A DNA stretch of 64,000 nt from Pseudomonas floridensis (GTDB lineage Bacteria; Pseudomonadota; Gammaproteobacteria; Pseudomonadales; Pseudomonadaceae): assembly GCF_002087235.1 (NCBI RefSeq), contig NZ_MUIO01000021.1, positions 124,001-188,000 of the forward strand. Reading direction: 5' to 3'. This document shows, one piece after another, positions 4,936-59,074 of the stretch (its first letter is position 1; the number at the start of each line of letters is the position of its first letter). Position numbers and translations under genes: made by a program. The notes under the pieces are model-generated. The model searched no databases. It saw nothing but the letters and a program-made list of their open reading frames with translations, and was not told the DNA's origin.

Positions 4936-4960
4936 TTTCCGTCGACAAATGCGCTTGAAA
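4936..4960 (+). promoter_or_regulatory. 25-bp palindromic transfer box, copy 1 (traA)
   Basis: Left arm TTTCCGTCG, A-rich centre, right arm GCGCTTGAAA. It fits the family of eight boxes described in the findings (invariant bases at positions 2-4, 6, 8, 19 and 22-25), with mismatches near the centre. It lies 82 nt before the pilin start, farther than the 56-65 nt seen for the other seven. Confidence 0.6.
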
Positions 4961-5042
4961 GCGAAACACAGGTTTGCGGAAAGCACGAAAAATGTCTCCG
5001 GAGCGCAGCCCCTGCGCATGTCAACCTCTAGGAGCAAGACCA

Positions 5043-5387
5043 ATGCACGTCAACAAAGCAACCCTCCAAACGATGGCCATCGCAGCGGCAATGATGGTTG
5101 CCGGTACCGCGCTCGCGGGTACCGGCGGCGATACGTTCGATAGCGTGTGGATTACCTTGACTGAGTGGATGCAAGGTACCCTCGGCCGTATTCTCATCGG
5201 CCTGATGATCCTCACTGGCATCGGCGCAGGCGTTCTTCGCCAATCGCTCATGCCGTTCGTTACTGGCGTGGGCGGCGGTGTTGGCCTCTATGCTGCGCCG
5301 GATGTTATCGAGTCGGTAATGTCGGCAACTATCCCAGCAGCAGCTGTAGTCACCAACGCTCTCCAAGCCATGCCTGTAGGCTTCTGA
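5043..5387 (+). CDS. traA: TraA-type conjugative pilin
   Basis: This 114-residue protein begins with a signal peptide ending in an A-x-A type site (TALAG, about residue 27). Two hydrophobic segments follow (about 45-65 and 70-95), the usual layout of F/H-type TraA and VirB2-like pilins. An in-frame ATG exists at 4974, but the start at 5043 is preferred because AGGAG lies just upstream and it begins a proper signal peptide. The gene stands alone between two terminators, as expected for a strongly expressed major pilin. The pilin would be processed, stored in the inner membrane and polymerised by the Tra proteins encoded downstream. Confidence 0.75.
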   Translation: MHVNKATLQTMAIAAAMMVAGTALAGTGGDTFDSVWITLTEWMQGTLGRILIGLMILTGIGAGVLRQSLMPFVTGVGGGVGLYAAPDVIESVMSATIPAAAVVTNALQAMPVGF

Positions 5388-5408
5388 TCTCAGTCAGAAC
5401 GACTCTCT

Positions 5409-5462
5409 GAAAGGCCTCTTTTTCCGACGCTAAAACGTCCTGAAAAAGAGGCCTTTTCTTTT
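5409..5462 (+). terminator. Long stem-loop terminator holding transfer box 2 in its loop
   Basis: A near-perfect stem of about 15 bp (AAGGCCTCTTTTTC with GAAAAAGAGGCCTT) is followed by a T-rich tract. The loop and inner stem contain the 25-bp box at 5421-5445, so the end of the traA transcript and the control region of the next operon overlap physically. Confidence 0.8.
5421..5445 (+). promoter_or_regulatory. 25-bp palindromic transfer box, copy 2 (dsbC-traC operon)
   Basis: Left arm TTTCCGACG, centre CTAAAA, right arm CGTCCTGAAA. It ends 60 nt before the dsbC start and is one of the closest matches to the consensus. Confidence 0.75.
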
Positions 5463-5505
5463 CCGGGCCAAATACTCTGGGTGAATCGACTCAGGAGGTA
5501 AGCCC

Positions 5506-6219
5506 ATGTTCAAACCCACCCAAACCATTCTTGCTATGACGCTGCTTGCAGTGGCTGGTACCGCAGTAGCTGCGAGCCCCGCGGACAAGAACGCAGACAA
5601 GGTAGTGATGCTTCCTGCGTCTGCAATGCTGGCGATCGAGAAGAACGGCAAGTTCGCCATCATCAGCGATACCGGGCGATTCATCATCCAGGGAACGGTC
5701 TATGACGTGTGGGCGAAGAAAGAGTTGAAAACCATCGAGGACGCTCGGATCGCCGCCAACTACATCCCAGTGGACAAGACCAACCTCGGTTTCAAGGATC
5801 TGGCCCCTCTCACTGTCGGCAACGGTGAGAAAGCGATCACCATGTTCTCCGACCCTGCTTGCGGGTTCTGCAAAGAGATCATTCAACAAGCCCGCACGTC
5901 TCTTCCAGAGGGGTATCGACTCGACGTGCTGATGTTGCCGCTGCTCAGCCAAGAGAGCGCTGTGCGTACCAAAGAACTCCTCTGCGCGAAAGACAAGGTT
6001 GCTGCTTGGAAAGCCGGAGCGGCCGGCGACATGAAAGCTCCTCTCGAACAGCTTCCGACAGCGCAGTGTGATCTGGACGTGATCTCGAAGCGCCGGATGA
6101 CAGCTCAGTTTCTTGGCGCTCGAAATGTTCCTTTCCTAATTCGTGATGATGGTTTGACCCGAGAAGGCAAGCCTGAAGAAGGCTTGCGCGCCTGGATTGA
6201 ATCGAATCGCACCCTCTAA
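5506..6219 (+). CDS. dsbC: DsbC-family periplasmic thiol-disulfide isomerase
   Basis: This 237-residue protein has an N-terminal signal peptide (cleavage after TAVAA, about residue 24), a DsbC-like dimerisation region and a C-terminal thioredoxin fold with the active site C119-G-F-C122. DsbC enzymes rearrange wrong disulfides in exported proteins. F/H-type transfer systems encode their own because TraU, TraH and similar proteins are rich in cysteine. It is the first gene of the dsbC-traC-trhF-trbC/W-traU run, with a strong ribosome site (CAGGAGGT). Transfer box 2 lies 60 nt upstream. Confidence 0.85.
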   Translation: MFKPTQTILAMTLLAVAGTAVAASPADKNADKVVMLPASAMLAIEKNGKFAIISDTGRFIIQGTVYDVWAKKELKTIEDARIAANYIPVDKTNLGFKDLAPLTVGNGEKAITMFSDPACGFCKEIIQQARTSLPEGYRLDVLMLPLLSQESAVRTKELLCAKDKVAAWKAGAAGDMKAPLEQLPTAQCDLDVISKRRMTAQFLGARNVPFLIRDDGLTREGKPEEGLRAWIESNRTL

Positions 6220-6230
6220 GGAATTCAGAA

Positions 6231-9268: not shown

Positions 9269-10503
9269 AAAAGCAACTAGCCCTGTGCATTGGGTTGGCC
9301 TTTGGTTGCACGATGGCCATCGCCGGCGATGACCTTGGCATTCGCAAGTACGACATCAATGAATTCAACCCTGTGCTCCTCGATCAGGTTAAAGAAATCA
9401 GTCGAAATGCGAGTGCCGCGCGCGCCGAAGCAAGCGGCCAAGATGACATGAGTTGGGTGAGTGAGATGGCCGAAAAGGCCATCGTTCAAGCCGGTGATGA
9501 AAATCCGCAGCAGAACGACTCAGCGCTGGCTAGCGCAGACGGCTCAGATCGCGAGAAAAAACATCCCCTTGGCGATGGAAATCGCACTCTGATTTTTGTG
9601 TCGTGGTCGATGGGCGCTACCGCCCTCAAAGACATACTTCTGTCGTTCGATGGACTGCCAGGTGTTGGCATTGTTTTTCGAGGAATACCTGATGGTATGT
9701 CGATGGGCGATGCTGTGACCAAAATGCACCTTCTCACGCAAGAGACGCAAAGCACAGTGAGCGTCCTGCTTGATCCTCTCGCATTCCAACGTCATATGGT
9801 GTCAGCAGTACCCACCGTGGCTCTCGAAGCACCGAATGATGCTCTGATCGCTAAAGCCGCTGGTTCGTCTTCTGTCAGCTACATCGAAGGAGCGGTCAAG
9901 GAAGGCAAGAGGGGAGATTTAGGCACTATTGGTTCCACAGAGGAAATCATCGAGCCTGACCTCATGGAGATTGCGAAACAGCGCATCGCAGATCTGGACA
10001 CCAACGCCATGAAAAAGCGAGCAATCGCCCGGTTTTGGGATAACCACAAAGGGCATCCACTGCCGCCGGTAACTGAGAGTGCCACCCGCCTCGTCGACGC
10101 ATCGGTCATTGTGCCCGATGACATTCTCGACAGCCAAGGCAGAGTCATTCAGAAGGCGGGAAGGATTAATCCACTCGACATGATGCCGTTTGACCAGAAA
10201 CTGGTGGTAATCGATCCGACGCAGCCTTGGCAGGTTGCCCTGGCGAAGCGCGAATACGCAGACCACGGGAAAAATCTGACCGTCACGATAATGGCTACTC
10301 AGATTCCCACTGCTTCTGGTTGGGAACTGTTCAACAGCGTACAGGACAACCTGGATGCGCCTCTCTACCTATTGCCGCCTGACATGGCGGAGCGCTTCCA
10401 GATCCTTCGCGCCCCTTCTGTCGTAACAGCCGACACGGAAAACTTCATCGTCCGCGAGGTTGCTCAATCCGCCTTCGAGGAGGCCAATCATGAGCATCAA
10501 TAA
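9262..10503 (+). CDS. traW: TrbC-TraW fusion, pilus assembly protein
   Basis: This 413-residue exported protein has its signal peptide ending near residue 21 (AIAG). The region around 105-205 matches F-type TrbC (LIFVSWSMG onward). The region around 285-400 matches TraW (DASVIVPDDILDSQG, then AGRINPLDMMPF). In the F plasmid these are separate genes. The fused form is the one known from SXT/R391 and IncC-type systems. It acts in the periplasm in pilus extension. The gene overlaps trhF at the 5' end and traU at the 3' end. Confidence 0.85.
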   Translation: MVKKQLALCIGLAFGCTMAIAGDDLGIRKYDINEFNPVLLDQVKEISRNASAARAEASGQDDMSWVSEMAEKAIVQAGDENPQQNDSALASADGSDREKKHPLGDGNRTLIFVSWSMGATALKDILLSFDGLPGVGIVFRGIPDGMSMGDAVTKMHLLTQETQSTVSVLLDPLAFQRHMVSAVPTVALEAPNDALIAKAAGSSSVSYIEGAVKEGKRGDLGTIGSTEEIIEPDLMEIAKQRIADLDTNAMKKRAIARFWDNHKGHPLPPVTESATRLVDASVIVPDDILDSQGRVIQKAGRINPLDMMPFDQKLVVIDPTQPWQVALAKREYADHGKNLTVTIMATQIPTASGWELFNSVQDNLDAPLYLLPPDMAERFQILRAPSVVTADTENFIVREVAQSAFEEANHEHQ

Positions 10504-11542
10504 GGTAATAGCCACCGCACTTCTGGTGATTGCGGGTATGTTTTCCCTGCCAGGGATAGCGGCTGATGCGGCATCGTCCGGTGAGGTGATGTGTGAGGAC
10601 TCTGGCCTTTTTGGTCCGAAGTTGTTCACCGACATCTGCTGGGCATGCCTATTCCCAATCCGTGTATCTGGTGTGCAAATAACCCCCGGCACAGCACCCG
10701 CCAAGGCTACAAAAATGGTCTTCTGTATTTGCCAGGAAGGCTCGTCCTCGATCTACAAGCCCGGAATCATTACTGCGATGTGGGAGCCGGCACGAATGGT
10801 TGAAACTGTCCGTAAGCCTGGTTGCTCGCCAACCCTAGGCGGTGTAACGCTCCCGTTTGGCAACAAGCGCAGCTATGGTCGGCTACGGCAGGACAACAGT
10901 ACCCAGACAGGACAGGCCGCCGGTTCGTTCTACCACGCTCACCTGTATGCTTTCCCGCTGCTTCAAATCCTCGATCTCTACACGCCTACGAAATGCAATC
11001 CGGACGGTTATCTCGACCTCGATATCATCTCTTTCACTGAGATCGACCCTACCTGGAACAACGGAACGTTGGCTTTCTTCCAGCACCCCGAGTCCGCGGC
11101 CGTGGCAAACCCAATCGCTATTGCGGCATGTGCTGCCGAATCCGCGCTGGTTACCGCTCGAAAGGAGCCTCTTGAGTCGCTTTGGTGGTGTACCGGTACA
11201 TGGGGGAGCATCTACCCATTTGCCGGCGTAACCGTGGCGCAAGATGCAAACCGGACGACAGCATTGCTGGCTGCGCGAGTGATCGCACAGCAACACCGCA
11301 GGGGCCTCGCTCGACGCACTATGGGTGATGAGAACGTGTGCAAGGCGGGGATCTACCCGACGATTCCGAAAAGTCAGTACAAAGTGACCCAGTTCTGGCC
11401 AAAGTCGCAGAACAGCAGAGCAATGTGGCTCGGAGAACCGCCCCAGACTTGGGAGGGCGGGCCTAGTCGGCATGTTCCAGGTACTGGGAACGATGCCATG
11501 TACATGTTCTGGCGATGGACCGATTGCTGCTCGAAGCTGTGA
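10490..11542 (+). CDS. traU: TraU, conjugal pilus assembly protein
   Basis: This 350-residue protein has a signal peptide (MSINKVIATALLVIAG onward) and many cysteines, including DICWACLFP, FCICQEG and a C-terminal DCCSK, as in TraU, a periplasmic protein needed for DNA transfer. The ATG at 10490 is chosen because GAGGAGG lies just before it; an earlier in-frame ATG at 10460 would put 10 extra residues before the signal peptide. It overlaps the TrbC-TraW gene by 14 nt. A terminator follows. No traN was found after it in this window. Confidence 0.92.
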   Translation: MSINKVIATALLVIAGMFSLPGIAADAASSGEVMCEDSGLFGPKLFTDICWACLFPIRVSGVQITPGTAPAKATKMVFCICQEGSSSIYKPGIITAMWEPARMVETVRKPGCSPTLGGVTLPFGNKRSYGRLRQDNSTQTGQAAGSFYHAHLYAFPLLQILDLYTPTKCNPDGYLDLDIISFTEIDPTWNNGTLAFFQHPESAAVANPIAIAACAAESALVTARKEPLESLWWCTGTWGSIYPFAGVTVAQDANRTTALLAARVIAQQHRRGLARRTMGDENVCKAGIYPTIPKSQYKVTQFWPKSQNSRAMWLGEPPQTWEGGPSRHVPGTGNDAMYMFWRWTDCCSKL

Positions 11543-11560
11543 CGAACCGTTCTAATGGAG

Positions 11561-11583
11561 AATCCGCCCGCAAGGGCGGATTT
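11561..11583 (+). terminator. Terminator after traU
   Basis: A 9-bp stem (AATCCGCCC with GGGCGGATT) with a tiny CGCAA loop lies 18 nt after the traU stop. The T run is short, so termination may be partial and let some reading into the NERD gene. Confidence 0.65.
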
Positions 11584-11591
11584 GCGATGGT

Positions 11592-12284
11592 ATGAATGAC
11601 TTTCTAATGCTGTATCTGCCCCCGGTTTTGATACTGGGGGTTCTAGCGGGCATCGCCCACGTCCGTTTACTTGAATTCCCTGCCTATCGAGGGTGGTGGG
11701 GGGAGTACAAGGTTAACTTCATGCTGCGCCTATGCCTCAGTGGCGATTACAAGGTGTTCGCCAACGCGATCTATCGTGGCAAGACAAGGGGAGAGTCGAC
11801 GCAGGTTGACCACATCATCGTGTCGCGCTACGGAATCTTTGTCCTGGAAACGAAGTGTTTCAAGGGCAAGATCATTACCTACCCGGAAGCCCCTGATAGC
11901 TGGTTGCAGATCGTTGGTCGAAGGAAATATCGCGTGCAAAACCCGCTGATGCAGAACTACGCACACGTGAAGGCAGTTCAGAAGGTCACCGGAGTCCACT
12001 CTCAGAAAATCCACAGCTACGCAGTGATGGCAGGCCAGGCCAGTTTTACCCATGGAATGCCTGAGCGGGTCTACAGCATTTGGGGCGTGATTCGTAAAAT
12101 CCAGTCCTACAAAGCCCCGGTTTTTACTCGGGGCCATGTGGTGTCAATTTGCCGGGCGCTGAGCGAGCGCAGAGTCAAGGGGGGGTATTGGGCTGCCAGA
12201 CGACATGTCGAAAAGCTGAAGCGCCGAGGGGAGGATGGATCTACAGCGTGCCATGAAGATAGACCCCGAGAGGAACACCTATAG
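11592..12284 (+). CDS. NERD-domain protein, membrane anchored
   Basis: This 230-residue protein has an N-terminal membrane segment (about 5-24) and then a NERD (nuclease-related) domain. The landmark residues are the G-E pair in WWGEYKVN, the Q-V-D-H-I-I strand and E-T-K in FVLETKCFKG, which together recall the PD-(D/E)xK nuclease core. NERD proteins occur on plasmids next to transfer genes, but their substrate is mostly unknown. The last 44 nt overlap the antisense small gene ending at 12241. Confidence 0.75.
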   Translation: MNDFLMLYLPPVLILGVLAGIAHVRLLEFPAYRGWWGEYKVNFMLRLCLSGDYKVFANAIYRGKTRGESTQVDHIIVSRYGIFVLETKCFKGKIITYPEAPDSWLQIVGRRKYRVQNPLMQNYAHVKAVQKVTGVHSQKIHSYAVMAGQASFTHGMPERVYSIWGVIRKIQSYKAPVFTRGHVVSICRALSERRVKGGYWAARRHVEKLKRRGEDGSTACHEDRPREEHL

Positions 12285-12486
12285 CCACTCCAATAAGAAC
12301 AGCAGCAGTGACAGAGACGATCGCGACCTTATCCCAAAATACTGCCTCGGAGGGCGCTTCAAGTGATTCGTCGGTGGCCAGCTGTTCTTCCCACAGTGGG
12401 GTGGCTTCGCGTGAAGGAGGCTGATCCGTCGCTTTTCTGCGTCTTCGACTGCTTCTTGCCTGTGTTGACGTAAGATCATCAAGCAT
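12241..12486 (-). CDS. Small single-pass membrane protein, unknown
   Basis: The 81-residue product has a hydrophilic, Arg/Lys-rich N-terminal half and one hydrophobic segment near the C-terminus (about 57-77). The ATG at 12486 is preferred because AGGAGAG precedes it; a longer version would start inside the upstream terminator. I do not recognise the family. It lies downstream of the DUF1845-like gene on the same strand, separated by a terminator, and its 3' end overlaps the NERD gene. Confidence 0.5.
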   Translation of the reverse strand: MLDDLTSTQARSSRRRRKATDQPPSREATPLWEEQLATDESLEAPSEAVFWDKVAIVSVTAAVLIGVAIGVPLGVYLHGTL

Positions 12487-12502
12487 AATGACTCTCCTAA
12501 GC

Positions 12503-12529
12503 AAAACGCCCCGCAATGCGGGGCGTTTT
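12503..12529 (-). terminator. Terminator after the DUF1845-like gene
   Basis: A perfect 11-bp stem (AAACGCCCCGC with GCGGGGCGTTT) has A/T-rich runs on both sides, so it could work in both directions. It lies 14 nt after the stop of the minus-strand gene 12544-13230. Confidence 0.8.
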
Positions 12530-12543
12530 CATTACTGGCGCGA

Positions 12544-13230
12544 TCAAGCAACTGCTTCTTCAGGAAGCGAATCGAGAGGGTCGGCATTGCCATCAGGCTC
12601 AATGTGACCAGCCGCCTCGCGCTCCTCCTTGTCAGCGGTCACTTTGGCTTCAGCCTTCTCGATATCTTCTTGGAGCTCTGCGACCTTGCTCGCGTATGCC
12701 TTTGCACGCGCGCTCTGACCGAGCCCAACGAGCGAGCGGATCAGCCGTGCCATTTGGTTGCTCTTGCTTGCACGAAACTCCTCAGCCTCCGAGCTATCGA
12801 TCTTCTCATGCAGCCAGGCTGTATCAACCTGGATAATCAGATGGTCAAATGCCTGAAGCAGGCTGCTCATCCGCTTGATTTCTGGGCTTGTGATTTCGAA
12901 TTCACGAGTCAGTGGTGAGCTGTACCCTGCAAGCTCTTTGATTCCCAGGCTCTTCAAAAGCGTGTCCATCCGCTCAGCCTCGTCACGCACGGCTACTTCC
13001 ATGCGCTCGATTTTCTTCGAGACCGCATCGACCACAGCTTTGTGATCAAAAGTCTTGAGGTTTTTGGCCAGCTTGCGGGACGTAACGTCGATGATAAAAA
13101 GGGCCGTCATGAGGCTATCGAAACGGTTGCCGGCAAAGAACTTCGCCTGCTCAGTGTTCAGTACCATCTTCCCTTTGAGGGATGGCTTGGAATATTGGTA
13201 CTTCGTCGGTTGTGGTTGAGTGGTCGCCAT
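12544..13230 (-). CDS. DUF1845-like protein, possible AcaB-type regulator
   Basis: This 228-residue soluble protein starts with a basic tail and KGKMVLNTEQAKFFAGNRFDS, followed by a helical region with regular heptads, and ends in an acidic tail. The pattern resembles DUF1845-type proteins common on conjugative elements. From memory, AcaB, an activator of IncC plasmid transfer, belongs to this group; I cannot confirm that here. A transfer box lies 65 nt upstream in the same spacing as for the tra operons, which supports a link to transfer control. Confidence 0.5.
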   Translation of the reverse strand: MATTQPQPTKYQYSKPSLKGKMVLNTEQAKFFAGNRFDSLMTALFIIDVTSRKLAKNLKTFDHKAVVDAVSKKIERMEVAVRDEAERMDTLLKSLGIKELAGYSSPLTREFEITSPEIKRMSSLLQAFDHLIIQVDTAWLHEKIDSSEAEEFRASKSNQMARLIRSLVGLGQSARAKAYASKVAELQEDIEKAEAKVTADKEEREAAGHIEPDGNADPLDSLPEEAVA

Positions 13231-13295
13231 TAGCGGTTTCTCCGGATGTTGGTGGCCGGACTATTGCACCAGCTTGCGGAGCCTCTGGATTTCGA

Positions 13296-13320
13296 TTTCG
13301 CGCACGATTTGCGTCGGAAT
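13296..13320 (-). promoter_or_regulatory. 25-bp palindromic transfer box, copy 3 (DUF1845-like gene)
   Basis: Read on the minus strand: left arm ATTCCGACG, centre CAAATC, right arm GTGCGCGAAA. The left arm is perfect and the right arm degenerate. It ends 65 nt before the gene start at 13230, the same distance as for traF and gene 53983. Confidence 0.55.
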
Positions 13321-13455
13321 TTGAAGTGATTTTTTCTGGTTGACGACAGACTGAAATGGCGGCGAGAATTACATCACTCATCGGCTAAGGTCGATTAAGA
13401 ATTTGCCTCCTGGAGGCCATTGACCCTAAGTGACAGCATGCTGCTGCCACTGGTA

Positions 13456-13568
13456 CCCAAGACGTGTATGCGTCTGGGAGCAAGCCAAGCTGAGCTTATC
13501 AGCTTAAAAACCAAGCCTACGTTCGCGTAGCGCCGATCAAAAAAGGAAGCCATTGGCTTCCTTTTTTT
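13456..13568 (+). ncRNA. Candidate structured small RNA with three hairpins and terminator
   Basis: Three consecutive hairpins are visible: 13456-13478 (CCC-A-AGACG with CGTCTGGG), 13487-13505 (AAGCTGA with TCAGCTT) and 13517-13530 (CTACG, loop TTCG, CGTAG). A strong terminator follows at 13539-13568 (GGAAGCC/GGCTTCC plus seven T). No convincing reading frame covers the stretch. A possible promoter is TTGACG at 13340 with GAGAAT at 13364 (18-nt spacer), which would give an RNA of about 190 nt. It could also be an attenuator-like leader of the gene at 13639. Confidence 0.45.
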
Positions 13569-13638
13569 GTGTCACAAAAACCCTGACGGGGAACTCCCGT
13601 TAGGGCGTTCTCCGTTTTAAAAAAATGGAGAACTGAAA

Positions 13639-13947
13639 ATGGCATCTACAACCCTCAAAGTTAAAGTGCTGACCGCGTTTGGCTTCCTCGTTGCTACGTT
13701 GGGAGCTGTATACGCACCGCAGTTTGCAAAGCATGTTTTGCCTTTGACACTCTGCGTGTTTCTCGCCGTGGTAATCCTGAATGCTGAGCAGATCCTGCGT
13801 GGTGTTCTGAGCTACCTACGCGGTTGTCTGAAGGCTTCGGCTCCTCAAGCAACCAAGACCTTACCCAACGCCCGTTGGTGTAGCAGCGTCGATTATGACA
13901 ACTACTACATTCCCTCCTACCTGCGTCGCCAGGGAGAAGAGAAATGA
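13639..13947 (+). CDS. Small membrane protein, unknown
   Basis: The 102-residue product has two hydrophobic segments (about 10-27 and 32-50) followed by a soluble C-terminus ending in DYDNYYIPSYLRRQGEEK. I do not recognise the family. The stop overlaps the next gene start by 4 nt (ATGA), so it is probably co-translated with the gene at 13944 and belongs to the primase operon. A separate inverted repeat, GTTCTCCGTTTT with TGGAGAAC, lies just before its start and contains the ribosome-site area. Confidence 0.6.
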   Translation: MASTTLKVKVLTAFGFLVATLGAVYAPQFAKHVLPLTLCVFLAVVILNAEQILRGVLSYLRGCLKASAPQATKTLPNARWCSSVDYDNYYIPSYLRRQGEEK

Positions 13948-14567
13948 TCCGTATTGACTTCGATGTTCCAAGCTATCTCCGACTGCCGCAAGGCCTATGC
14001 ATCGTTTCAGAGCGCCTGGCTCATAAGCTTCCCGAGCCAGAAAGCAATGAAGCGCGGCACCAAGCGCTTGAACCGGTGGTGATCAACACACTGTACCGGC
14101 CGGAAGGCCGCAACCAAGTTGTATCGATCGAGAACCAAGAGCAGGGCGAGATCAAAGGGGAGTTCATCCCTCGCGAATCCCAGCCCGCGCATCAAGAGAC
14201 AGCTCAAGAGATACAAGTCGCCCAAGGTGATGTGGATCAAGTTGAGCGCGCACCAGAACTCAATTTCCAAGGCGTTGCTGGCAGGTCTGTCACCGGCGAA
14301 TACCGCGGTTCAGGTTTCGCCCATTATCGATTTCTCAAGAAGAACGGAAAGTCGTTCTTCTTGCGTATCGGTGAACACCTGGTTTGGGGAATCGAGCTTA
14401 ACGCTCAGCTACGCAAATCTGGAGCGCAACAAGGTGACAAGATCTCCCTGACGTACCTTGGCAAAACCGCCGTGAGTGTGCTCAAAGAGGTCGTTGTCGA
14501 CGGTAAGAAAGAACAGGAGTGGGTTGATACCTACCGTAATTCCTGGGAAATCAAAATCGTGAAATAG
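13944..14567 (+). CDS. Protein with relaxase-tail-like C-terminal domain
   Basis: This 207-residue protein has a variable, Gln/Glu-rich N-terminal part (about 1-105). The C-terminal domain (about 110-190) has the pattern G-E-YRGSGFAHYRF, SFFLRI, VWGIEL, SGAQQGDKISL. That domain is usually found at the far C-terminus of conjugative relaxases and plasmid primases (my family-level recollection). Here it stands alone, directly before a primase gene. It might act as an accessory module of a relaxase or primase encoded in trans. No catalytic motifs are visible. Confidence 0.6.
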   Translation: MIRIDFDVPSYLRLPQGLCIVSERLAHKLPEPESNEARHQALEPVVINTLYRPEGRNQVVSIENQEQGEIKGEFIPRESQPAHQETAQEIQVAQGDVDQVERAPELNFQGVAGRSVTGEYRGSGFAHYRFLKKNGKSFFLRIGEHLVWGIELNAQLRKSGAQQGDKISLTYLGKTAVSVLKEVVVDGKKEQEWVDTYRNSWEIKIVK

Positions 14568-14572
14568 CCAGC

Positions 14573-14596
14573 AGATGCGCCCGTCCGGGCGCATCT
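14573..14596 (+). terminator. Strong GC hairpin between 13944 gene and primase
   Basis: An 11-bp perfect stem (AGATGCGCCCG with CGGGCGCATCT) has a 2-nt loop and no T run. It may be a stability or pausing element rather than a true terminator, because the primase gene follows 20 nt later. Confidence 0.4.
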
Positions 14597-14615
14597 CAAC
14601 CAACCGGAGGTACCC

Positions 14616-15731
14616 ATGTCCAAAGACTCAGAAGGCAATTACGCCCCAGAGAAGCAAGATGTGCTGGTAGCCGCTGATGGCCGCTGGCATGACATATACG
14701 CAAGCCTCGCATCTTCTTTGGTGCCGGCACACAAAAAAGCAGGACGTGGAGTCCCATGTCCGGTGCATGGTGGGGAAGACGGGTTCAAGATTTTCCGTAA
14801 GACGGCTGGATCGTCGAGCGGTGGGATCTGCCGTACCTGCGGAGTAAAGGCTGATGGCATAGCCTTACTGATGTGGGTCAACCGTTGGAGCTTTCACCAC
14901 GCCCTACAGGAGGTTGGGGCATTGCTACGGATCAAAGACCCGCATGGGCGCACCGCTGATGGCTTTGTCCCAAGCGTTGTAATCCGTAAGGAGCGAGCTC
15001 CGAGCAAGCCAGAGGCTTCCGACGATTGGCTGCGTGAGGCAATGCGCAACCTGTGGAAGGGGACAGTTCCTCTCACAGATCCATCAGCGGAGCCAGCAAG
15101 GCTCTATCTTCGCTCCCGAGGCATTCTTGCTTGGGATCGACCAGAGCTGAGCCGCTACGTTCGCTTCCATCCGGAATTGACCTACAAGGACAAATCCGGC
15201 AAGCGTTCCAAGCATCCGGGCATAGTGTGTACGCTCATCGATCCTGAAGGCCAGGCTGTGACCATCAACCGTCACTACCTGACAATGAAAGGTGAGAAAG
15301 CGGATCTCGCTGAGCCGAAAAAAATGTTCCCAATCCCCAGCAACCGAAAGCTTCCCGGCTGTGCGGTTCCAACATCTCATCCAGGAGAAGTCTTGGATGT
15401 ATGTGAAGGATTGGAAACAGCTCTATCGGTGGAAACAGCTATGGGTATACCAGTATGGCCCTTAGTGAATTCCTACCTGTTGGAGAGCTTCGTACCACCA
15501 GCCTGCACCAAAGCAGTCCGAATCTGGGCTGATAAGGACCGCAAGGAAGGAGGCCAAAAAGCGGCATTCGCTTTGAAAAAACGTCTGTGGGAAATGGGGA
15601 TCAAGGCGCAAATAATGCTGCCGGACATGCCCATCCCTGACGGCTCCAAAGGTGTCGATTGGAATGACGTTCTTCGTGAACGTGGTTCTCTCGGCTTCCT
15701 CGGTCACGAGGTCTATCGCGCACAGCGATAG
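14616..15731 (+). CDS. Plasmid DNA primase with zinc finger and Toprim domain
   Basis: The 371-residue protein has an N-terminal zinc-binding region (CPVHGGEDGF then CRTCG, about residues 49-82). A linker with an SRGI-like segment follows, and then a Toprim domain starting at DVCEGLETALSV (about 263) with the acidic motif W-A-D-K-D (about 307). It should make RNA primers for the incoming strand after conjugation or for plasmid replication. It starts at an ATG with CGGAGG upstream. The downstream spacer holds the box for the traF operon. Confidence 0.85.
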   Translation: MSKDSEGNYAPEKQDVLVAADGRWHDIYASLASSLVPAHKKAGRGVPCPVHGGEDGFKIFRKTAGSSSGGICRTCGVKADGIALLMWVNRWSFHHALQEVGALLRIKDPHGRTADGFVPSVVIRKERAPSKPEASDDWLREAMRNLWKGTVPLTDPSAEPARLYLRSRGILAWDRPELSRYVRFHPELTYKDKSGKRSKHPGIVCTLIDPEGQAVTINRHYLTMKGEKADLAEPKKMFPIPSNRKLPGCAVPTSHPGEVLDVCEGLETALSVETAMGIPVWPLVNSYLLESFVPPACTKAVRIWADKDRKEGGQKAAFALKKRLWEMGIKAQIMLPDMPIPDGSKGVDWNDVLRERGSLGFLGHEVYRAQR

Positions 15732-15761: not shown

Positions 15762-15786
15762 TTTCCGACCGTAAAAGCGCCTGAAA
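15762..15786 (+). promoter_or_regulatory. 25-bp palindromic transfer box, copy 4 (traF-H-G operon)
   Basis: Left arm TTTCCGACC, centre GTAAAA, right arm GCGCCTGAAA. It ends 65 nt before the traF start. Confidence 0.75.
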
Positions 15787-22043: not shown

Positions 22044-23078
22044 TCAGTGGTTGCACCAGATGCATCGGCCGGGCTTGAGTGCGTAACGAGCGTTGATTTC
22101 CTTGCACTTGCTGCATGGAGTGAGCGTGATATCTCCGGTCTTCATCGCGTTGCTGAGCTGGTAACCGTTGGAAGGGGAGATCATATCGCTGGCCTCAATG
22201 CCGACAGCTCTGCACAGCTCTACATACTCGCGATGAGCCGCAACCACCGCCCGAGCATTCGTCCGCCGAAGAGGATTGTCGGCGAGCAGCCTGTATACAG
22301 TCAGATAGAGCAAACTGTGAAGAGGGCTTTCGGCCAGTGTCTTATTCGGTGCCTGTATTCGTCCACTCTGGGACTGAACCAGGGGGGTATCCCGTAGCAA
22401 GGAGCGCTTCATCCTGACTACTTCGTCCGCATTCAATCCAGTCCATTGCGCGACCAACTTGGGCTGTAGCTTCTGCTGAAGCAACTCGGTCGCTACCACA
22501 TGGAGGGGCATCGTCGAGGGATAGTCCTTGATCCGACCTATGCCACTCACGCCAGGCTTCAGAAAGTACCGAAGATCACCAAGCAATACTGTAGTCACGT
22601 CCCTGAGTTGATCGTCTGGCGAAGATAGGTTCATCCTCAGCTTTCTGAGGTTGCACCTGGTGCCAACCGAGAACCCGCCGCGGCTAACCAGCATCATCCG
22701 AGAGTCGAAAGAGCCTGCCTCGAACACCCGATACCCAACATCGTCTAGGCCTACAGCCAGAATAGGGCTTGTCTGGTTGACGCGGGAGAAGTGGCAAAAC
22801 TCCATGAACATAACCATTTTGTTACCGATCTCCCTAAACTCTTCATCGTCTAGGTAGCCCCTGCCGACCTTTAGGGTGTTGTAGTGGACCCGGTAGAGGG
22901 AGACCGGGAGAGCGTCGACAGCGTTCAACTGACGTTGGTTGGTGCTCAACGAAGAAAGCCAAACCATATCGCTCTGAGTCAAGCGCTGCTCAGCGAGAAT
23001 GACATTGAAATCTCGCAAGCCAGATGTCAGCCAGCGCAGACCCATTTGTATCATCGATGCGTTGATCTTAACTCGCAT
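22044..23078 (-). CDS. FlhC-like master regulator, possible FlhD-FlhC fusion
   Basis: This 344-residue protein has a C-terminal half (about 185-344) like FlhC: helices matching LLYLTVYRLL and AHREYVELCR, then a four-Cys zinc site C322-x2-C325-x13-C339-x2-C342. Residues about 20-80 (NVILAEQRL, then DALPVSLYRVHYN) weakly resemble FlhD. A single chain carrying both FlhD- and FlhC-like parts is therefore possible, though a duplicated FlhC-like half is an alternative. In SXT and IncC elements SetCD/AcaCD are separate FlhDC homologues that switch on transfer, and a transglycosylase gene sits beside them, as here. This protein is my candidate for the factor that reads the eight transfer boxes. Confidence 0.6.
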   Translation of the reverse strand: MRVKINASMIQMGLRWLTSGLRDFNVILAEQRLTQSDMVWLSSLSTNQRQLNAVDALPVSLYRVHYNTLKVGRGYLDDEEFREIGNKMVMFMEFCHFSRVNQTSPILAVGLDDVGYRVFEAGSFDSRMMLVSRGGFSVGTRCNLRKLRMNLSSPDDQLRDVTTVLLGDLRYFLKPGVSGIGRIKDYPSTMPLHVVATELLQQKLQPKLVAQWTGLNADEVVRMKRSLLRDTPLVQSQSGRIQAPNKTLAESPLHSLLYLTVYRLLADNPLRRTNARAVVAAHREYVELCRAVGIEASDMISPSNGYQLSNAMKTGDITLTPCSKCKEINARYALKPGRCIWCNH

Positions 23079-23088: not shown

Positions 23089-23658
23089 TTACTTTAAACG
23101 CTGTAGTGAACGCCAAATTCTGAGCACATTACTCGCATACTCACGTGCGTCAAGTTCACGTTTTGGGTTTCGTGTATGGTAGCCACCGATGGCTAGTTGC
23201 ATATCGACAGGGTATTGCGCAATCGACTCGCAAAGTATCTGGGCACCGATCCGAATATTTACTTCAGGGTCAAGAAGAAGCTCTGGGCGTGCTACTCGAT
23301 TGCCATTCCAGCGATAATTTATTTGCATAATCCCTATATCGGTAAGAATGTCTTCGGCAATATATTTGCCGAGTACAACCTTGGCAGCCATATAGGTTTT
23401 AGGGTACAGCGCACCACTAGGAGCGTTCCGAAGCGCAAATGGGTGTGGTGCAACCATTCCTTGTCCGGCAGAAGTTTTAGATTCATTCAGGGCCAGTGAA
23501 TATAGAAGCAATGGGTCCGGTTTGCATGCGGTGGCCATTGAGGCTCGCTCCCACATTGTCCCTTTTAATGAAAATCCGTTAGCGTTTGCGCTTGCTGAAT
23601 TAAATATCGCAATGCATGCATAGACGGTAATAAAGGAGCTGGCGCGGATATTAAACAT
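23089..23658 (-). CDS. Lytic transglycosylase (SLT family)
   Basis: This 189-residue exported protein has a signal peptide (about 1-26). The likely catalytic Glu59 lies in LALNES, followed by the fold motifs DIGIMQINY (about 107) and IGGYH. Such enzymes cut the peptidoglycan to let the transfer machinery through, like VirB1 or P19. The stop lies 10 nt before the FlhC-like gene start, and the gene overlaps the small upstream gene by 8 nt, so all are one operon. Local base composition is more A/T-rich than in the neighbours. Confidence 0.82.
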   Translation of the reverse strand: MFNIRASSFITVYACIAIFNSASANANGFSLKGTMWERASMATACKPDPLLLYSLALNESKTSAGQGMVAPHPFALRNAPSGALYPKTYMAAKVVLGKYIAEDILTDIGIMQINYRWNGNRVARPELLLDPEVNIRIGAQILCESIAQYPVDMQLAIGGYHTRNPKRELDAREYASNVLRIWRSLQRLK

Positions 23659-23923
23659 TAGCCCCCCTTATCCAGCTAGCAACTGGGCGAGACGTAGGCT
23701 CATTACTAATTGGCTCTTTTTCGCCCTTAGATAGAGTATTATGCTGCTGACTATCAGCCTGCTTATTTTTATTCTCTTCGGTCGCGCTAATCATGCTTAG
23801 ATACAGTGCAGCCATTGCAACAAGCCTTTTACCCCGATAATCGGGGTCAATAGTTTCGAGATGCGCGTGCAATTCTTGTGTCGCTGGCGTGACTCGACAT
23901 TGTAGTCTCATCGTTTTATCCAC
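23651..23923 (-). CDS. Small basic DNA-binding-like protein, possible ParM partner
   Basis: The 90-residue product has a short strand MRLQCRVTPATQELHAHLE, then a helix GKRLVAMAALYLSM, suggesting a ribbon-helix-helix-like fold, and a disordered tail. It follows the ParM-like gene by 36 nt on the same strand. Its size and position fit a ParR/StbB-type adaptor that would link a centromere to the ParM filament. That role is inferred; no family was firmly recognised. It overlaps the transglycosylase gene by 8 nt. Confidence 0.5.
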   Translation of the reverse strand: MDKTMRLQCRVTPATQELHAHLETIDPDYRGKRLVAMAALYLSMISATEENKNKQADSQQHNTLSKGEKEPISNEPTSRPVASWIRGANV

Positions 23924-23959: not shown

Positions 23960-24940
23960 TTAAGAGCGTGCTATATGCCAGAAACCTTCGGCATTGCTTT
24001 TTACGCTATTCACGGGCTTGACTACCAAAGCGTCGGGAAATTCTTTTCGAGCGAATGGCTCATACAATGAGGCTCCCCCACCGCCAAGAATTACACAGTC
24101 GATAGCACGCCCCTTCAGGAATCGAAGTCCTTGTTTGATCTCAGTAAAGACGGATGGGATAACACGCTCGGCAGCACGCTCGAGATATTCAGCAAGCTCA
24201 ACTTTGCGGCCATAGATCAGGATGTAAGACTTACCCGACTGGAGCGCATGTTCGATCTTCTCTACACCAGGAATACCGCCATGATCCTTCGCAATTTCTT
24301 CGTTGCACGCTTCAAGTACAACAGACATAGCTTTGAGGCTGCTGCTGCTGGAGTTGACTACCAGTTCGCGATGGTCAAATACCACCCAATCAACACTGAA
24401 AAAACCCGGATCAATAATGATTGAAACTGACTCCTCAATAACCTCCGAAGCATCTGAGTTGCAGTAAATCTCCGTCAGAGTCCCGATAGGCTGAGCAACA
24501 ACCTCTACTCGCTTAACCGTAACCTCTCGCTTGGGCGTAATCCGATGCGTCCCGGTCATACGCTTTACCAGGGCTTCTACATAGGGCTTATCGCGGGCTT
24601 GCGAGACAGGAAGGCCAGTGACTAAGCAGTCAATTACGTCTTTATCACCGGCCGCATGCAGTAGAGAACCTTTAAATAGGGCCTCATAGGCGAGCGAGGA
24701 AGTGTAATCCTCGTGCAGCTCTCGTCCATCCTGAACTCGGCCGGGCGCGGCAAATGCCACCCAGGGCGCGCCATCAACTTCAACGATTACTTCACCAGGG
24801 CGTAACCCAGAATCTCCAGGCAGAACGCTCAAGGGAGCGGCCTGCGAGGGACGAATGATCGACTCCGGTTGCCCATCAGCACCGCCGAAAACGCCAATGA
24901 CGTTGCTGTAACCAATATCCAGACCTAAGGCGTTACCCAT
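23960..24940 (-). CDS. parM: ParM/StbA-type actin-like ATPase (PRTRC protein D-like)
   Basis: The 326-residue protein starts MGNALGLDIGYSN, the first phosphate-binding loop of the actin/Hsp70 fold. The second is IIIDPGFFSVDWVVFD (about 197), and the adenosine motif is ILGGGGASLY (about 286). The ATG at 24940 is chosen because GGGAG precedes it and because the upstream extension shows no family features. Such ATPases build filaments that push plasmid copies apart. The family also includes PRTRC protein D, and the rest of that cassette lies 21 kb away. A possible TTGGGA promoter element lies at 25030. Confidence 0.8.
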   Translation of the reverse strand: MGNALGLDIGYSNVIGVFGGADGQPESIIRPSQAAPLSVLPGDSGLRPGEVIVEVDGAPWVAFAAPGRVQDGRELHEDYTSSLAYEALFKGSLLHAAGDKDVIDCLVTGLPVSQARDKPYVEALVKRMTGTHRITPKREVTVKRVEVVAQPIGTLTEIYCNSDASEVIEESVSIIIDPGFFSVDWVVFDHRELVVNSSSSSLKAMSVVLEACNEEIAKDHGGIPGVEKIEHALQSGKSYILIYGRKVELAEYLERAAERVIPSVFTEIKQGLRFLKGRAIDCVILGGGGASLYEPFARKEFPDALVVKPVNSVKSNAEGFWHIARS

Positions 24941-25117
24941 TCGTATGCCGCTCCCAGCAAAAAAAGACAAAAGAAGTGCGTCAAATGACGACGCAGATGA
25001 CCCAGCAACACATGAAACCCCATACCTACAGAATCCCAAGCGCTACAGCTGCGTCACCCGGTCAACAGATGACGACGAGCCGTCATAATCTGCCTTCACG
25101 AAAGCCCTGTGCTTCGT

Positions 25118-25142
25118 TTTCAGGTCGTTTTAGCGTCTGAAA
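25118..25142 (-). promoter_or_regulatory. 25-bp palindromic transfer box, copy 5 (MobI-like gene)
   Basis: On the minus strand: left arm TTTCAGACG, centre CTAAAA, right arm CGACCTGAAA. It is inverted relative to the other copies but sits 58 nt before the plus-strand gene at 25201. The gene on the other side (parM) starts 177 nt away. Confidence 0.7.
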
Positions 25143-25200: not shown

Positions 25201-25695
25201 ATGAACCCACCTTCTGAAGCCCCCAAGCATCCAGCAGTAGCGGAGCTCGATCGCGTCTATTCCAGCCTTGTCGACCGAGCCGAAGAGCTGCGCGACTCTT
25301 TCTTCCAGACAGCCCTTTCTCTGCACGCAGGCAAGCCTGGGCATATACCGATAGTGATCCGGATACGGCAATCGAGCCCGAATGCAGTCACCATCGAATG
25401 GGCGAAAGTGATTTTGCCGAGGCTCAAGGAAGGCGAAGCCAAAAAACCGCGGGTCATCCGCACCATCAACAAGGGTCAAGGAAGCAAGTACTTGGTCTCG
25501 TCGTTCTCGTTCGTGAAGGAGCCCTTGAAGAACATCGTTCGGGCCTACGAAACCCAGCTCGCCGAAATCCGGGAAACGTGCTCAGTCATTCAGCGAGTCC
25601 GCCGTCAGCTTGTCCCTGCGGTAAAGAAAGCCGGCGTTGTTGACGCCTCTATTGCGGCGTTCATCACTCACGATTACCCCGCAGCGTCCGACTGA
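25201..25695 (+). CDS. Possible MobI-like auxiliary transfer protein
   Basis: This 164-residue soluble, helical protein has a basic stretch in the middle (VILPRLKEGEAKKPRVIRTINKGQG, shown here by its limits, about 74-98). The start at 25201 is supported by AAAGGAG. I do not see a certain family. The size, the transfer box 58 nt upstream, its position after the regulator/transglycosylase block and the repeat array just downstream all match the arrangement of MobI beside oriT in SXT and IncC elements. MobI there is needed for initiation of transfer. Confidence 0.4.
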   Translation: MNPPSEAPKHPAVAELDRVYSSLVDRAEELRDSFFQTALSLHAGKPGHIPIVIRIRQSSPNAVTIEWAKVILPRLKEGEAKKPRVIRTINKGQGSKYLVSSFSFVKEPLKNIVRAYETQLAEIRETCSVIQRVRRQLVPAVKKAGVVDASIAAFITHDYPAASD

Positions 25696-38176: not shown

Positions 38177-38194
38177 GATGATGACCTCCAATAG

Positions 38195-38970: not shown

Positions 38971-38995
38971 TTTCGGACGTTAAAACGTCTTGAAA
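38971..38995 (+). promoter_or_regulatory. 25-bp palindromic transfer box, copy 6 (Arc-like gene)
   Basis: Left arm TTTCGGACG, centre TTAAAA, right arm CGTCTTGAAA. It ends 56 nt before the Arc-like start. Confidence 0.75.
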
Positions 38996-52811: not shown

Positions 52812-53052
52812 GCAAATGACTCGTTTGAACTGGATGGGCCTTTAGGGTGAACGCGGCCACAGAAAACCCAACTCCGATGACCTGTCGAATTTGTCCAACA
52901 GGCCGTTGGACGACCTCCATTTCAGGCACTAATCCAGCGTGAAAACGCGCCCGGCCTGCGTCCCGGCCGGATAGGATCAGGCCAAGCCACAGTGGCTCAG
53001 CCTACCAATGGGACGGGCGTGGCGTTCCGGTTCATCCACCAGTCGTCCCTGG

Positions 53053-53547: not shown

Positions 53548-53915
53548 TGATAGACGCGATAGCTCGACGTTTGGGCTTCATTCGAGTTGCAGTTATGAGG
53601 GATCAACTTCAGTTTGCTCGAAACATTTCCAAGCGACTGGATGAACATCGAGAGGTGGTTGAACAGATCCAAACTCAAACAAATCTTTTCACTCAATGCC
53701 CGTGGCACATCAGCCACATGGCCACGCAAGACGACTACCTCATGAGGATTTATAGGATGGTGCATGGTGCCTGGCCATGCCATCCCGATGAGGTTCACCG
53801 TCAGCGCTTGTACGGTGAGTCGATTCGCCAGCGCCCCCGGTTGCTCGGTGATTGCGGTTTGCCAGAGTACCGCCCGCATGACAGGGGGAGTAATTCCGAC
53901 GCTCTTAGGTCCTGA
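53547..53915 (+). CDS. Hypothetical protein
   Basis: The 122-residue product MIDAIARRLGF... is helical and basic at its C-terminus. Its start overlaps the previous stop (TGATG), so it is translated with it. Its 3' end overlaps transfer box 7. Unrecognised. Confidence 0.5.
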   Translation: MIDAIARRLGFIRVAVMRDQLQFARNISKRLDEHREVVEQIQTQTNLFTQCPWHISHMATQDDYLMRIYRMVHGAWPCHPDEVHRQRLYGESIRQRPRLLGDCGLPEYRPHDRGSNSDALRS

Positions 53916-53917
53916 AA
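53893..53917 (+). promoter_or_regulatory. 25-bp palindromic transfer box, copy 7 (53983 gene)
   Basis: Left arm ATTCCGACG, centre CTCTTA, right arm GGTCCTGAAA. It ends 65 nt before ATG 53983 and overlaps the 3' end of the previous gene. Both arms match well while the A-rich centre differs. Confidence 0.6.
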
Positions 53918-56021: not shown

Positions 56022-56046
56022 GTTCCTTCGTCGAAAGCAGGCGTTC

Positions 56047-57025: not shown

Positions 57026-57034
57026 GGAAGCTCC

Positions 57035-57235: not shown

Positions 57236-57247
57236 GGGAACCCTGAT

Positions 57248-57951
57248 ATGGGTGGTAATGCTCTGGCTTCATTCGGCTCAACACGCTGCTCGCGTGATGT
57301 TGCCCTGCACATGCTGGATGACTTTCAAGCGCGCTTCGCGCAGATTACCGGCCACCTTGGGAACGCAGCGAGGGTTGAGCCCATCGCCGCATATCGTCTG
57401 AAGCCTGACTTCGGCGACCTAGATATGCTGGTTGATAGCCGGGTTTTTCAGTCCATGCCGCCACAATCCGTGGTTGAGGCGTAGCCAGCGGCAAGCGTTT
57501 CAACCCGGAGTTGTATCCGCTTGAGCACCGCAACCACACTGCCCGCGTGCGAGACAAGAAACGACCTGTATACATGGGCTTCCTGCAATGGATTGAGGCC
57601 CAGCGTGGGCTGCGTTACTTTGGCTGGAGCGAAGACAAAGCCCTGTATATGCCAGAGGTGATGACTGCGTTTCCTTCGCTGCGTGAGGATTACGAATCCA
57701 GCTTGGCCAAGCTAAATCAGGCCAAAGCGATTCGCGCCTGCTTCAATGGCACGGTGGTGACTGCTATAACCGGGCTGACGGGGAAGCAGCTCGGTCAGTT
57801 CATGGCGCACTTCAAGCACGACCTTGCCGAGGGCATGGCTGACTTGCCTTCCTTGTCTATGGAGCAACTGAGTTCGCTGATTCGCAATTCGCATGAAGTG
57901 TTCGTCCGTACAGTCGAGCAATCTACAGAAATCCGACGCAAGCAAGATTGA
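57248..57951 (+). pseudogene. Broken nucleotidyltransferase-like gene
   Basis: Frame one (57248-57484) starts MGGNALASFGS and includes AYRLKPDFGDLDMLV, the G-D-x-D pattern of nucleotidyltransferases. It stops at residue 78. A second frame (about 57478-57951) continues with ASGKRFNPELYP, then FLQWIEAQRG and ends with CFNGTVVTAITGLTGKQLGQF, like the tail of the same phage/plasmid family (recalled as roughly 350-400 residues). The middle of the protein seems missing, so a deletion plus frame change is likely. The C-terminal part would need a TTG start (57511). Confidence 0.5.
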
Positions 57952-57961
57952 GGAAATCGCT

Positions 57962-58201
57962 ATGTCCTGGGCAGATCGCGCAGCACCTATAGTCGGGGAG
58001 GTAATCCGCCGCGTTGGGCGAAGCAACCAGCAGGCCCTGCGAAAGGCGCTGGCCGAGGCATACCCTTGGGGGGCACGAAAGAATTCGCCTTACAAGGCGT
58101 GGCTCGCCGAGGTGCGCCGACAGTTGGGGCACCCGCTGAATGCGCCGAAGGCCGATCCAGAGAATCAACAAACTGACATGTTTGGGCGCCATGAAGAGTA
58201 G
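57962..58201 (+). CDS. Small hypothetical protein
   Basis: The 79-residue product MSWADRAAPIVGEV... is basic in its middle (ALAEAYPWGARKNSPYKAWLAEVRRQLGHP, in outline) and ends TDMFGRHEE. GAGGAAAT precedes the ATG. This layout is common in small plasmid proteins. Unrecognised. Confidence 0.55.
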   Translation: MSWADRAAPIVGEVIRRVGRSNQQALRKALAEAYPWGARKNSPYKAWLAEVRRQLGHPLNAPKADPENQQTDMFGRHEE

Positions 58202-58570
58202 ACCACGTGGCTGCGGCTCCCTCGACGCCAATTCGCTGGTTTAACCTGGTGGCGTCCTGCTGTTGAGAAGGTCATCCTTCTTCCGAGCGCTGGTATGCCG
58301 GCTTTATCCCACCCAGAGAGGGCTGGACTATTCCCCCCTGCAAAGTTCGCCCCCTTCAACACCGAAAATCATCTGCTCATGCATCCAGGCGATTGCGCTG
58401 CCTAGGCGGCATCGAGTGCTACGCCTCTACCGTCAGTGCCCGTGCCCTAGCATCGAATTCAGGCGGAAAAGCTGTCTGAAACCGAGCTGTACGGGCTAAT
58501 GCTTCTTGCATCCTTGGGATTTTCAACGTGTCGGGTAAATCCGATGCCGAACCCGTAAAAGGAGCAAGCA
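58202..58570 (+). other. 369-bp gap without a convincing gene
   Basis: The frame of the preceding gene stays open past its stop from 58202 to about 58405 and reads plausible protein (GLTWWRPAVEK, LLPSAGMPALSHPERAG), but it has no start codon, so it may be a decayed gene or a read-through tail. A promoter-like pair is at 58514 (TTGGGA) and 58536 (TAAATC) with a 16-nt spacer, 29 nt before ATG 58571. Confidence 0.4.
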
Positions 58571-58930
58571 ATGCCAATCGCAAACGAGCATCAAGAAGAC
58601 GAGCCGAGATTGATCGACCGGATAATGAGTGACCTGCTGTCCGCTATGGATCGAGACAATTCAGATCTGCGATCCACGTTGATCAAGAACAGTGACGACA
58701 TCCGGACCTTGGCCGAAATCTGTCGGCAGACCTGTGTTTTCGAGCATAGCCAGGCAAAGTTTGCCGAATTCAAACAGCATCTGGAGGAGTCAACACCTCC
58801 AGAAGAACGCCTCGTCAAATCGTGGGCGTGGCTGCTTGACCGGATTGTCCATTCACCGACCACTCTGCACATGCGGGGAGCCGTTCGCCTCTGCGTGCCG
58901 CTGGTTGCGCTCTACCTTCCCTCGGAATGA
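58571..58930 (+). CDS. Hypothetical protein
   Basis: The 119-residue helical protein MPIANEHQEDEPRLID... has no motif I recognise. AAGGAGC precedes the ATG. The 208-bp gap after it contains transfer box 8. Confidence 0.5.
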   Translation: MPIANEHQEDEPRLIDRIMSDLLSAMDRDNSDLRSTLIKNSDDIRTLAEICRQTCVFEHSQAKFAEFKQHLEESTPPEERLVKSWAWLLDRIVHSPTTLHMRGAVRLCVPLVALYLPSE

Positions 58931-59049
58931 CTAAGGGGTAAGAACCCGCATAGCTAGGGAAAAGGGGGTGATTTTTCACGCCACTTTTGAAACGAATCGG
59001 AGAGGTTTGGGTTATTTCGAGTTCGCGATACAACGGTTTCGAGCTGCGC

Positions 59050-59074
59050 TTTCAGTCGGTAAAAGCGTCTGAAA
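59050..59074 (+). promoter_or_regulatory. 25-bp palindromic transfer box, copy 8 (klaA-telA)
   Basis: Left arm TTTCAGTCG, centre GTAAAA, right arm GCGTCTGAAA. It ends 64 nt before ATG 59139. Confidence 0.72.

Follow-up and report, generated by a model that had tools for sequence, protein, structure and literature searches.

In this article we describe a 25-base-pair (bp) palindromic box which is repeated along a 64,000-nucleotide (nt) stretch of Pseudomonas floridensis DNA (the window, bases 124001-188000 of a 188,693-base contig) belonging to an IncP-7 plasmid related to pCAR1. We propose that the box is quite probably the operator of a plasmid-encoded FlhC-type activator of IncP-7 transfer, and that this activator is most likely a protein of 344 amino acids (aa) encoded at 22044-23078 on the minus strand. 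It was confirmed that the repetition of the box is real, since 20 sites were found in the contig where 0.25 would be expected by chance. Besides this count, the computed evidence consists of the spacing of the boxes, the position of the -10-like hexamers behind them, their conservation, the AcaC/FlhC likeness of the 344-aa protein and the existence of chromosomal islands with boxes and att-like repeats.

A previous sequence-only reading of the window had listed eight boxes between 4936 and 59074, and all eight sequences are indeed present there. On the plus strand they precede traA (4936-4960, 82 nt to the ATG at 5043), dsbC-traC-signal peptidase-trbC-traU (5421-5445, 60 nt), traF-traH-traG (15762-15786, 65 nt), an Arc-like gene (38971-38995, 56 nt), the 53983 gene with a DUF1173 gene (53893-53917, 65 nt) and klaA-telA (59050-59074, 64 nt); on the minus strand one precedes a DUF1845/AcaB-like gene (13296-13320, 65 nt), and the last, assigned to neither strand, lies between the ParM operon and mobI (25118-25142, 58 nt to mobI). 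The spacing claimed for them, with seven boxes ending 56-65 nt before an ATG and traA standing apart, was thus reproduced; the orientation of the boxes towards the genes was assigned by us. The invariant letters of the same reading were usable as a strict pattern, which gave 8 matches in the window compared with 0.17 expected in shuffles, but C19 is present in only seven of the eight copies, the 59050 copy having T at position 19, and the matches are seven of the listed boxes and a new one at 52920.

A symmetric matrix built from the eight sites was run over the plasmid and its relatives. It found 20 sites above 16 bits in the contig (random mean 0.25, maximum 2 in 100 shuffles; with column-permuted matrices, mean 0.12, maximum 3 in 200) and 17 in pCAR1 (random mean 0.28, maximum 3 in 100), so the objection that random sequence would give as many hits did not hold. 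The 20 sites comprise the eight listed ones, two more within the window which had been overlooked (52920-52944, plus strand, 20.8 bits, 63 nt before the open reading frame (ORF) at 53008, and 58457-58481, plus strand, 23.1 bits, 89 nt before the ORF at 58571) and ten beyond it, which precede traN, the DsbA-KorB-CsrA side, mobH, the traL/traE operon, traK, parW and others. A weak match at window position 683 (12.6 bits, within the gene of a 1618-aa protein) is probably a chance hit. In pCAR1, 15 of the 18 sites above 12 bits end 47-82 nt upstream of a start, according to a list of genes taken by hand from the annotation around the boxes; the remaining three are those at 70640, 74141 and, with a weak score, 137781. 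In the contig, the site corresponding to 74141 is followed after 63 nt by a 106-aa ORF.

The -10 hexamer was scored by its distance from the box, with 2000 shifted controls. The top peak was at offset 28 in the IncP-7 boxes (n=20), in the boxes of an Azotobacter plasmid (12 of 14 matches, 157700 and 217937 being left out) and in the differently lettered type-B boxes of a sister lineage (9 of 14 stretches), while in our own sampling of the AcaCD-type boxes of the IncC plasmid pVCR94deltaX (10 of 13 stretches) it stood 41.5 bp from the box centre, compared with 40 bp in the IncP-7-type boxes; none of the 2000 controls reached any of these four peaks. Among 18 contig sites, A is found at offset 29 in 89% and T at offset 33 in 94%, as exemplified by the -10-like hexamer TACTCT of the dsbC promoter (5473-5478, plus strand, offset 28). 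No -35-like hexamer was found at normal spacing in 30 sites; the right end of the box resembles a -35 but lies 27 bp from the -10. The promoters of SetCD and AcaCD are described as class II promoters with a poor -10 and a non-conserved -35 (PMC4542580). The fixed -10, the absent -35 and the AcaCD-like geometry favour activator-dependent promoters, and because the main transfer operons are among the boxed ones, an activator of the AcaCD/SetCD type with another site, as the sequence-only reading had suggested, is the favoured explanation.

The window is matched by 24 plasmid records, 16 of which cover at least 80% of its first 24 kilobases (kb), pCAR1 (95% identity) and pDK1 (92%) being among the 16. 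Absence of the sites from related plasmids would have spoken against a regulon, and it was found instead that boxes recur before the same genes in pCAR1, pDK1, the fetched stretches of CP070507 and CP081478, and the diverged Azotobacter plasmid CP045303. Matches above 12 bits numbered 14 in pDK1 (0.35 in random sequence), 18 in the complete CP070507 (0.8) and 14, with a drifted consensus, in the complete CP045303 (0.2); 50-kb stretches of pSDM007 (CP070507) and CP081478 gave 8 (0.25) and 6 (0.1) matches, respectively. The sites of CP045303 stand directly upstream of the traL operon, traK, traA (12.7 bits), dsbC, the AcaB-like gene, traF and mobI, and this plasmid provides more independent support since pCAR1 and the window are closely related by descent. 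The six sites in the first 49,999 bases of pWW53 and the single one in the 41,859 bases of pND6-1 say little, because four of the former and the only one of the latter are letter-for-letter identical to those of pDK1.

In the sister plasmid CP071948, whose TraC is 80% identical to that of the window (77% in the Azotobacter plasmid and 81% in CP115216), the box of the window (type A) has a single match, inside traN (0.4 in random sequence). The idea that this plasmid is a boxless relative was rejected, since a different 25-bp palindrome (type B), roughly AAACTGACCAGAATSTGGTCRGTTT in a sampling of 14 upstream stretches, occupies the same places. Before traN, mobH, traK, dsbC, the AcaB-like gene and an ORF on the DsbA side (9564) the type-B box stands at 60-65 nt; for traA and the traL operon the distance is 79-80 nt. 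At traF it is 31 nt to the annotated start and 76 nt to the first residue aligning with the TraF of the window (residue 5). No convincing site was seen in five of the 14 stretches. A 344-aa gene was not found in CP071948, where traG is annotated as a short piece followed by a mer region (L023:44230-44851).

The 22044-23078 protein had been named as the regulator of the sites from sequence alone, and this guess is now supported by the AcaC/FlhC likeness of its C-terminal half and by synteny with acaDC. Residues 188-326 align with AcaC (BLASTP E 6e-7, one comparison), and in a profile-profile comparison by hhalign it matches E. coli FlhC grouped with AcaC and two relatives (E 6.3e-10, probability 96.6), while the profiles of AcaD/FlhD and AcaB gave E values of about 0.09-0.1. 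The C-terminus carries a CxxC-x13-CxxC arrangement, a Cys4 motif as in FlhC-like subunits. Relatives of the gene were found in Pseudomonas, Stutzerimonas and Azotobacter, and in none of 53 candidate stretches from viral contigs.

The neighbours of acaDC are traG, SLT, ParM and mobI (PMC4542580), and the 344-aa gene has the same context. Near traG there are an SLT (lysozyme-like) transglycosylase gene (23089-23658, minus strand) syntenic with that of the IncC acaDC operon, a 90-aa ORF (23651-23923, minus strand) without a family match, which by position corresponds to acr1 of IncC, the ParM/StbA-like gene (23960-25039, minus strand; a TTG-start ORF as listed, the annotated pCAR1 start being further in), which is the first of the unit, and mobI (25201-25695, plus strand), whose longer ORF 25159-25695 matches PF19456 with E 1e-20. 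In pCAR1 the ParM unit spans 165130 to 161590 (PMC2642839) and therefore includes the 344-aa gene. The box at 25118 does precede mobI, as originally reported, but it was overlooked that it faces ParM too: -10-like hexamers are present at offset 28 on both sides, the one towards ParM being GATTAT (GATCAT in Azotobacter). In favour of the ParM side, the start predicted for pCAR1 from this box (165122) is close to the array start of the unit (165130). The box faces both ways and may drive the activator's own operon.

Boxes were also found in Pseudomonas chromosomes. The strict pattern was searched in 298 genomes and MobI in 398, both samples being drawn from a larger group. The pattern matched 36 of the 298 genomes and the reversed control, by our own count, also 36, never with more than two matches per genome, so single matches alone mean nothing; accordingly, 30 genomes with a single match represent the chance level, and five with 7-12 matches stand out (four besides the window's own). 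In the stretch taken from genome G079 no ORF passed the filter. The single match in genome G239 precedes a MobI gene (PF19456) 37% identical to the MobI of the window, and it counts because mobI stands behind its box and 12 further places were found via that gene. As a query, this MobI returned 25 rows from 19 of the 398 genomes. Its family occupies 13 distinct places in 10 of the 398 genomes, with 84-99% identity apart from one broken copy (59%), and stops are present in two of the 13. In all 13 places the assumed start of mobI is preceded, at 57-58 nt, by a box of 25.8-33.3 bits, only G239's own box having been used to reach them. Altogether 23 MobI places were evaluated (two rows were one place and L134 gave no alignment), of which 21 have the box, eight of them with plasmid-type MobI; no box was found at L127 and at the fragment L135.

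Nine of the 13 places were covered by fetched stretches. Eight of the nine have a further box (20.8-28.3 bits), placed 69-70 nt before an ORF of the 321-aa type (L110:7218-8183), for which Pfam, PHROGs and NCBIfam gave no match; in G359 it is broken. The transfer-messenger RNA gene (ssrA) is present in six of the nine, with an integrase-like alignment beginning 180 nt away, whose copy in G239 matches an integrase family. In four of these six the ssrA end is repeated exactly over 18-22 bp, and the repeats enclose 25,454, 22,801, 21,889 and 23,850 bases with mobI inside; for G060 and G209 no such repeats were found in the fetched DNA. At offset 28 there is CACCAT or CACTAT before mobI (9/9) and CAACAT or CATCCT before the ORF (8/8). 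These hexamers score 5 of 9, and other nearby hexamers score equally or better; a -10 at this offset is consistent with the island data rather than proven by them. The islands look like elements that borrow the activator of IncP-7 plasmids. A third strong box (33.3 bits) was seen 72 nt before a 61-aa ORF in genome G111 (L145:4687, joined stretch position 24687). Genome G032 was rejected as a member of the ssrA islands: it has an IncP-7-like segment in its chromosome (L108, G032:C1:4716392-4736391, at 9559-15565) with ParM, SLT, a strong box and MobI, a transposase at the place of the 344-aa gene and an adjoining integrase gene.

In our model the 344-aa protein would bind the box at about -65 to -41, in promoters without a -35, and would recruit RNA polymerase to a weak -10 beginning at offset 28. 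The transfer operons would be switched on, and with them mobI, klaA-telA, the acaB-like gene and some genes linked to partition, and through the bidirectional ParM/mobI box the activator may raise its own operon in a positive feedback. The chromosomal islands, where mobI and one further gene stand behind such a box, would probably be mobilized when an IncP-7 plasmid switches on. We infer binding, activation, feedback and island mobilization from the sequence arrangement.

Several observations weigh against this model. The transcription units of pCAR1 were mapped at 9-bp resolution (PMC2642839), and with the start predicted 41 nt from the box end, only four array units begin near a box: ORF115 (117040, predicted 117042), ParM (165130, predicted 165122), klaA (60210, predicted 60229) and traF (155840, predicted 155873), that is 2, 8, 19 and 33 nt off. 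Several boxed genes have no array start at the box, and the units traG-ORF131, ORF134-143 and ORF91 begin elsewhere. The 344-aa protein compared with E. coli FlhC alone gave only E 4e-4 (probability 35), and the profile likeness was built on few sequences (effective number about 2). No FlhC match of this protein was found in Pfam and NCBIfam, nor did the Pfam FlhC profile match anything in the host genome; this profile is called unsuitable for SetC/AcaC (PMC4542580), and a type-B relative matched the NCBIfam FlhC with E 0.0056, far below the family cut-off. An FlhD-like partner or domain was not detected, and FlhD likeness of the N-terminal half was dropped as no sequence similarity to AcaD/FlhD was found; a single-sequence structure model (mean predicted local distance difference test 34) was not used. 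The protein is only 38% identical in Azotobacter and 33% in the type-B plasmid CP046903. In IncC the acr1-acaDC promoter was unresponsive to AcaCD although the 152 promoter responded (PMC4207636), and no SetCD site was reported for the SXT regulatory module in PMC4542580. Furthermore, pWW53 is boxed yet not one of the 24 plasmid records in which the 344-aa gene occurs, and CP115216 keeps 13 matches above 12 bits over its complete sequence (0.8 in random sequence) with traH and traG as stray fragments only; neither the 344-aa gene nor traF was found there, and as it seems to be a decayed plasmid it was used as evidence neither way.

The expression levels in pCAR1 are less informative. The units with the boxed genes klaA, ORF115-111, traG-ORF131, ORF134-143, traF-trhG and ORF154-150 have values of 125-356 in KT2440 on succinate, and ORF100-109 and ORF145-146 exceed 4400 (PMC2642839). 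The ORF100 and ORF145 promoters gave no box match, and in that source no consensus is reported between them; mobI and traN are absent as units from its Table 1. The low expression of boxed units is weak evidence, because several unboxed units are equally low, e.g. repA (347) and ORF61-60 (217), and the par units, which contain boxes, reach 2441-3199, mostly credited to the parA promoter.

The AcaB-like protein follows the box change better than the 344-aa protein does, and it was kept as the main rival. Its gene (12544-13230, minus strand) had been listed as a DUF1845-like target, and it is boxed, but its homology to AcaB was overlooked: the product matches PDB 6n8b with E 8e-15, the Pfam AcaB profile remaining below cut-off (E 0.066). 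According to this alternative, which we judge unlikely, the ribbon-helix-helix AcaB-like protein would bind the boxes, activate the operons and regulate itself. AcaB, its homologue, is a transfer regulator whose structure has been solved. The gene of the AcaB-like protein is boxed on pCAR1, pDK1, CP070507, CP081478 and the Azotobacter plasmid, with a weak site (14.4 bits) in CP115216 and a type-B box in CP071948. The identity of the protein is 58% and 53% in relatives with the type-A box and drops to 36% in CP071948 while TraC holds 77-81%, and on the putative recognition strand, whose position we assume from general ribbon-helix-helix geometry, the last outward residue changes from N to K with the box type. 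Other proteins nevertheless fall alike, MobH from 63-67% to 40% and the 115619 ORF from 53-54% to 37%. In IncC it is AcaCD that drives acaB, AcaB acting back on acaDC so that the two form a positive loop (PMC9927553, PMC11493245). The tra promoters there carry AcaCD-type boxes with the same -10 geometry and palindrome layout as the present box, and in our sampling such a box precedes acaB as well. A second AcaB-family gene was noticed elsewhere in the host genome (G000:C66:6275-6910, L022; E 5e-67).

That the boxes are repressor operators silencing transfer, for instance of the KorB-domain protein encoded beside csrA, appears very improbable. This protein is encoded within a boxed unit of pCAR1, and most boxed units listed for pCAR1 have low transcription, though the same is true of many unboxed ones (PMC2642839); the absence of the KorB-domain protein from its usual place in CP071948, which also lacks the type-A boxes, had at first lent it some appeal. 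It was dropped as a binder, since pDK1, without the korB-csrA pair, retains its 14 matches above 12 bits, and promoters without a -35 at normal spacing leave little to repress. At the place of the pair (L024, 24062-27584), pDK1 has a gene annotated as a TnpB-type RNA-guided nuclease; in pCAR1 (L020:14108-15200) the adjacent csrA and KorB-domain genes hint at post-transcriptional control of transfer. Hardly credible is an architectural or partition role of the palindromes (as parS-like or host factor sites), as several boxes in the par region and a boxed gene with a weak ParB-like match might suggest, given their fixed distance to the -10-like hexamer and mostly to start codons, and the same arrangement at the island mobI genes. 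A further feature of the window is a minus-strand ORF at 37751-38206 matching the autoproteolytic subunit of DNA polymerase V (UmuD-like).

If the 344-aa protein acts as proposed, the switching on of transfer in the IncP-7 catabolic and resistance plasmids would gain a candidate account. Among the literature matches listed, outside which most subscription journals lie, nothing was found on an IncP-7 transfer activator, the box or such Pseudomonas islands. We see an even chance for the more specific picture of a single-chain FlhC-type activator working without FlhD, whose box changed wholesale between two sister lineages with the geometry kept, and which the ssrA islands use via mobI. The box change at about nine promoters between sister plasmids is a natural test of the co-change of regulator and site, and through the islands the IncP-7 plasmids are connected with the movement of chromosomal genes in Pseudomonas. 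A 2015 review expected that from further FlhCD-like activators with unrelated motifs new mobilizable-island families would follow (PMC4542580). It reports such activators of mobile elements in Enterobacteriaceae and Vibrionaceae and does not mention IncP-7; the IncP-7 case looks like that forecast, outside these two families.

The closest known system is the AcaCD regulon of IncC (IncA/C). The two share boxes before the MOBH/MPF_F transfer operons and acaB (the IncC boxes being of our own sampling), a palindrome with an A/T core, a -10 about 40 bp (IncP-7) or 41.5 bp (IncC) from its centre, and an activator gene that lies next to an SLT gene, with traG on one side and ParM/mobI on the other. 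The IncP-7 box differs in sequence, one 344-aa protein stands in place of AcaD and AcaC, no FlhD part was detected, the activator gene lies within the ParM unit, and the relatives are in Pseudomonas, Stutzerimonas and Azotobacter. With SetCD of the SXT/R391 integrative and conjugative elements the common features are an FlhC-type activator, class II promoters and activator-borrowing islands (PMC4542580), IncP-7 being a plasmid; the SetCD site is described as unrelated to that of AcaCD. In the Pseudomonas islands no boxed excision factor was identified and mobilization is presumed from their organization. Like the MGIVmi1-type MobI islands used by IncC (PMC4207636, PMC8409611), they occupy one fixed target gene in the chromosome and have the box of the helper before a mobI-like gene, and they are distinguished by their Pseudomonas hosts, the ssrA target, the IncP-7-type box and the boxed 321-aa ORF.

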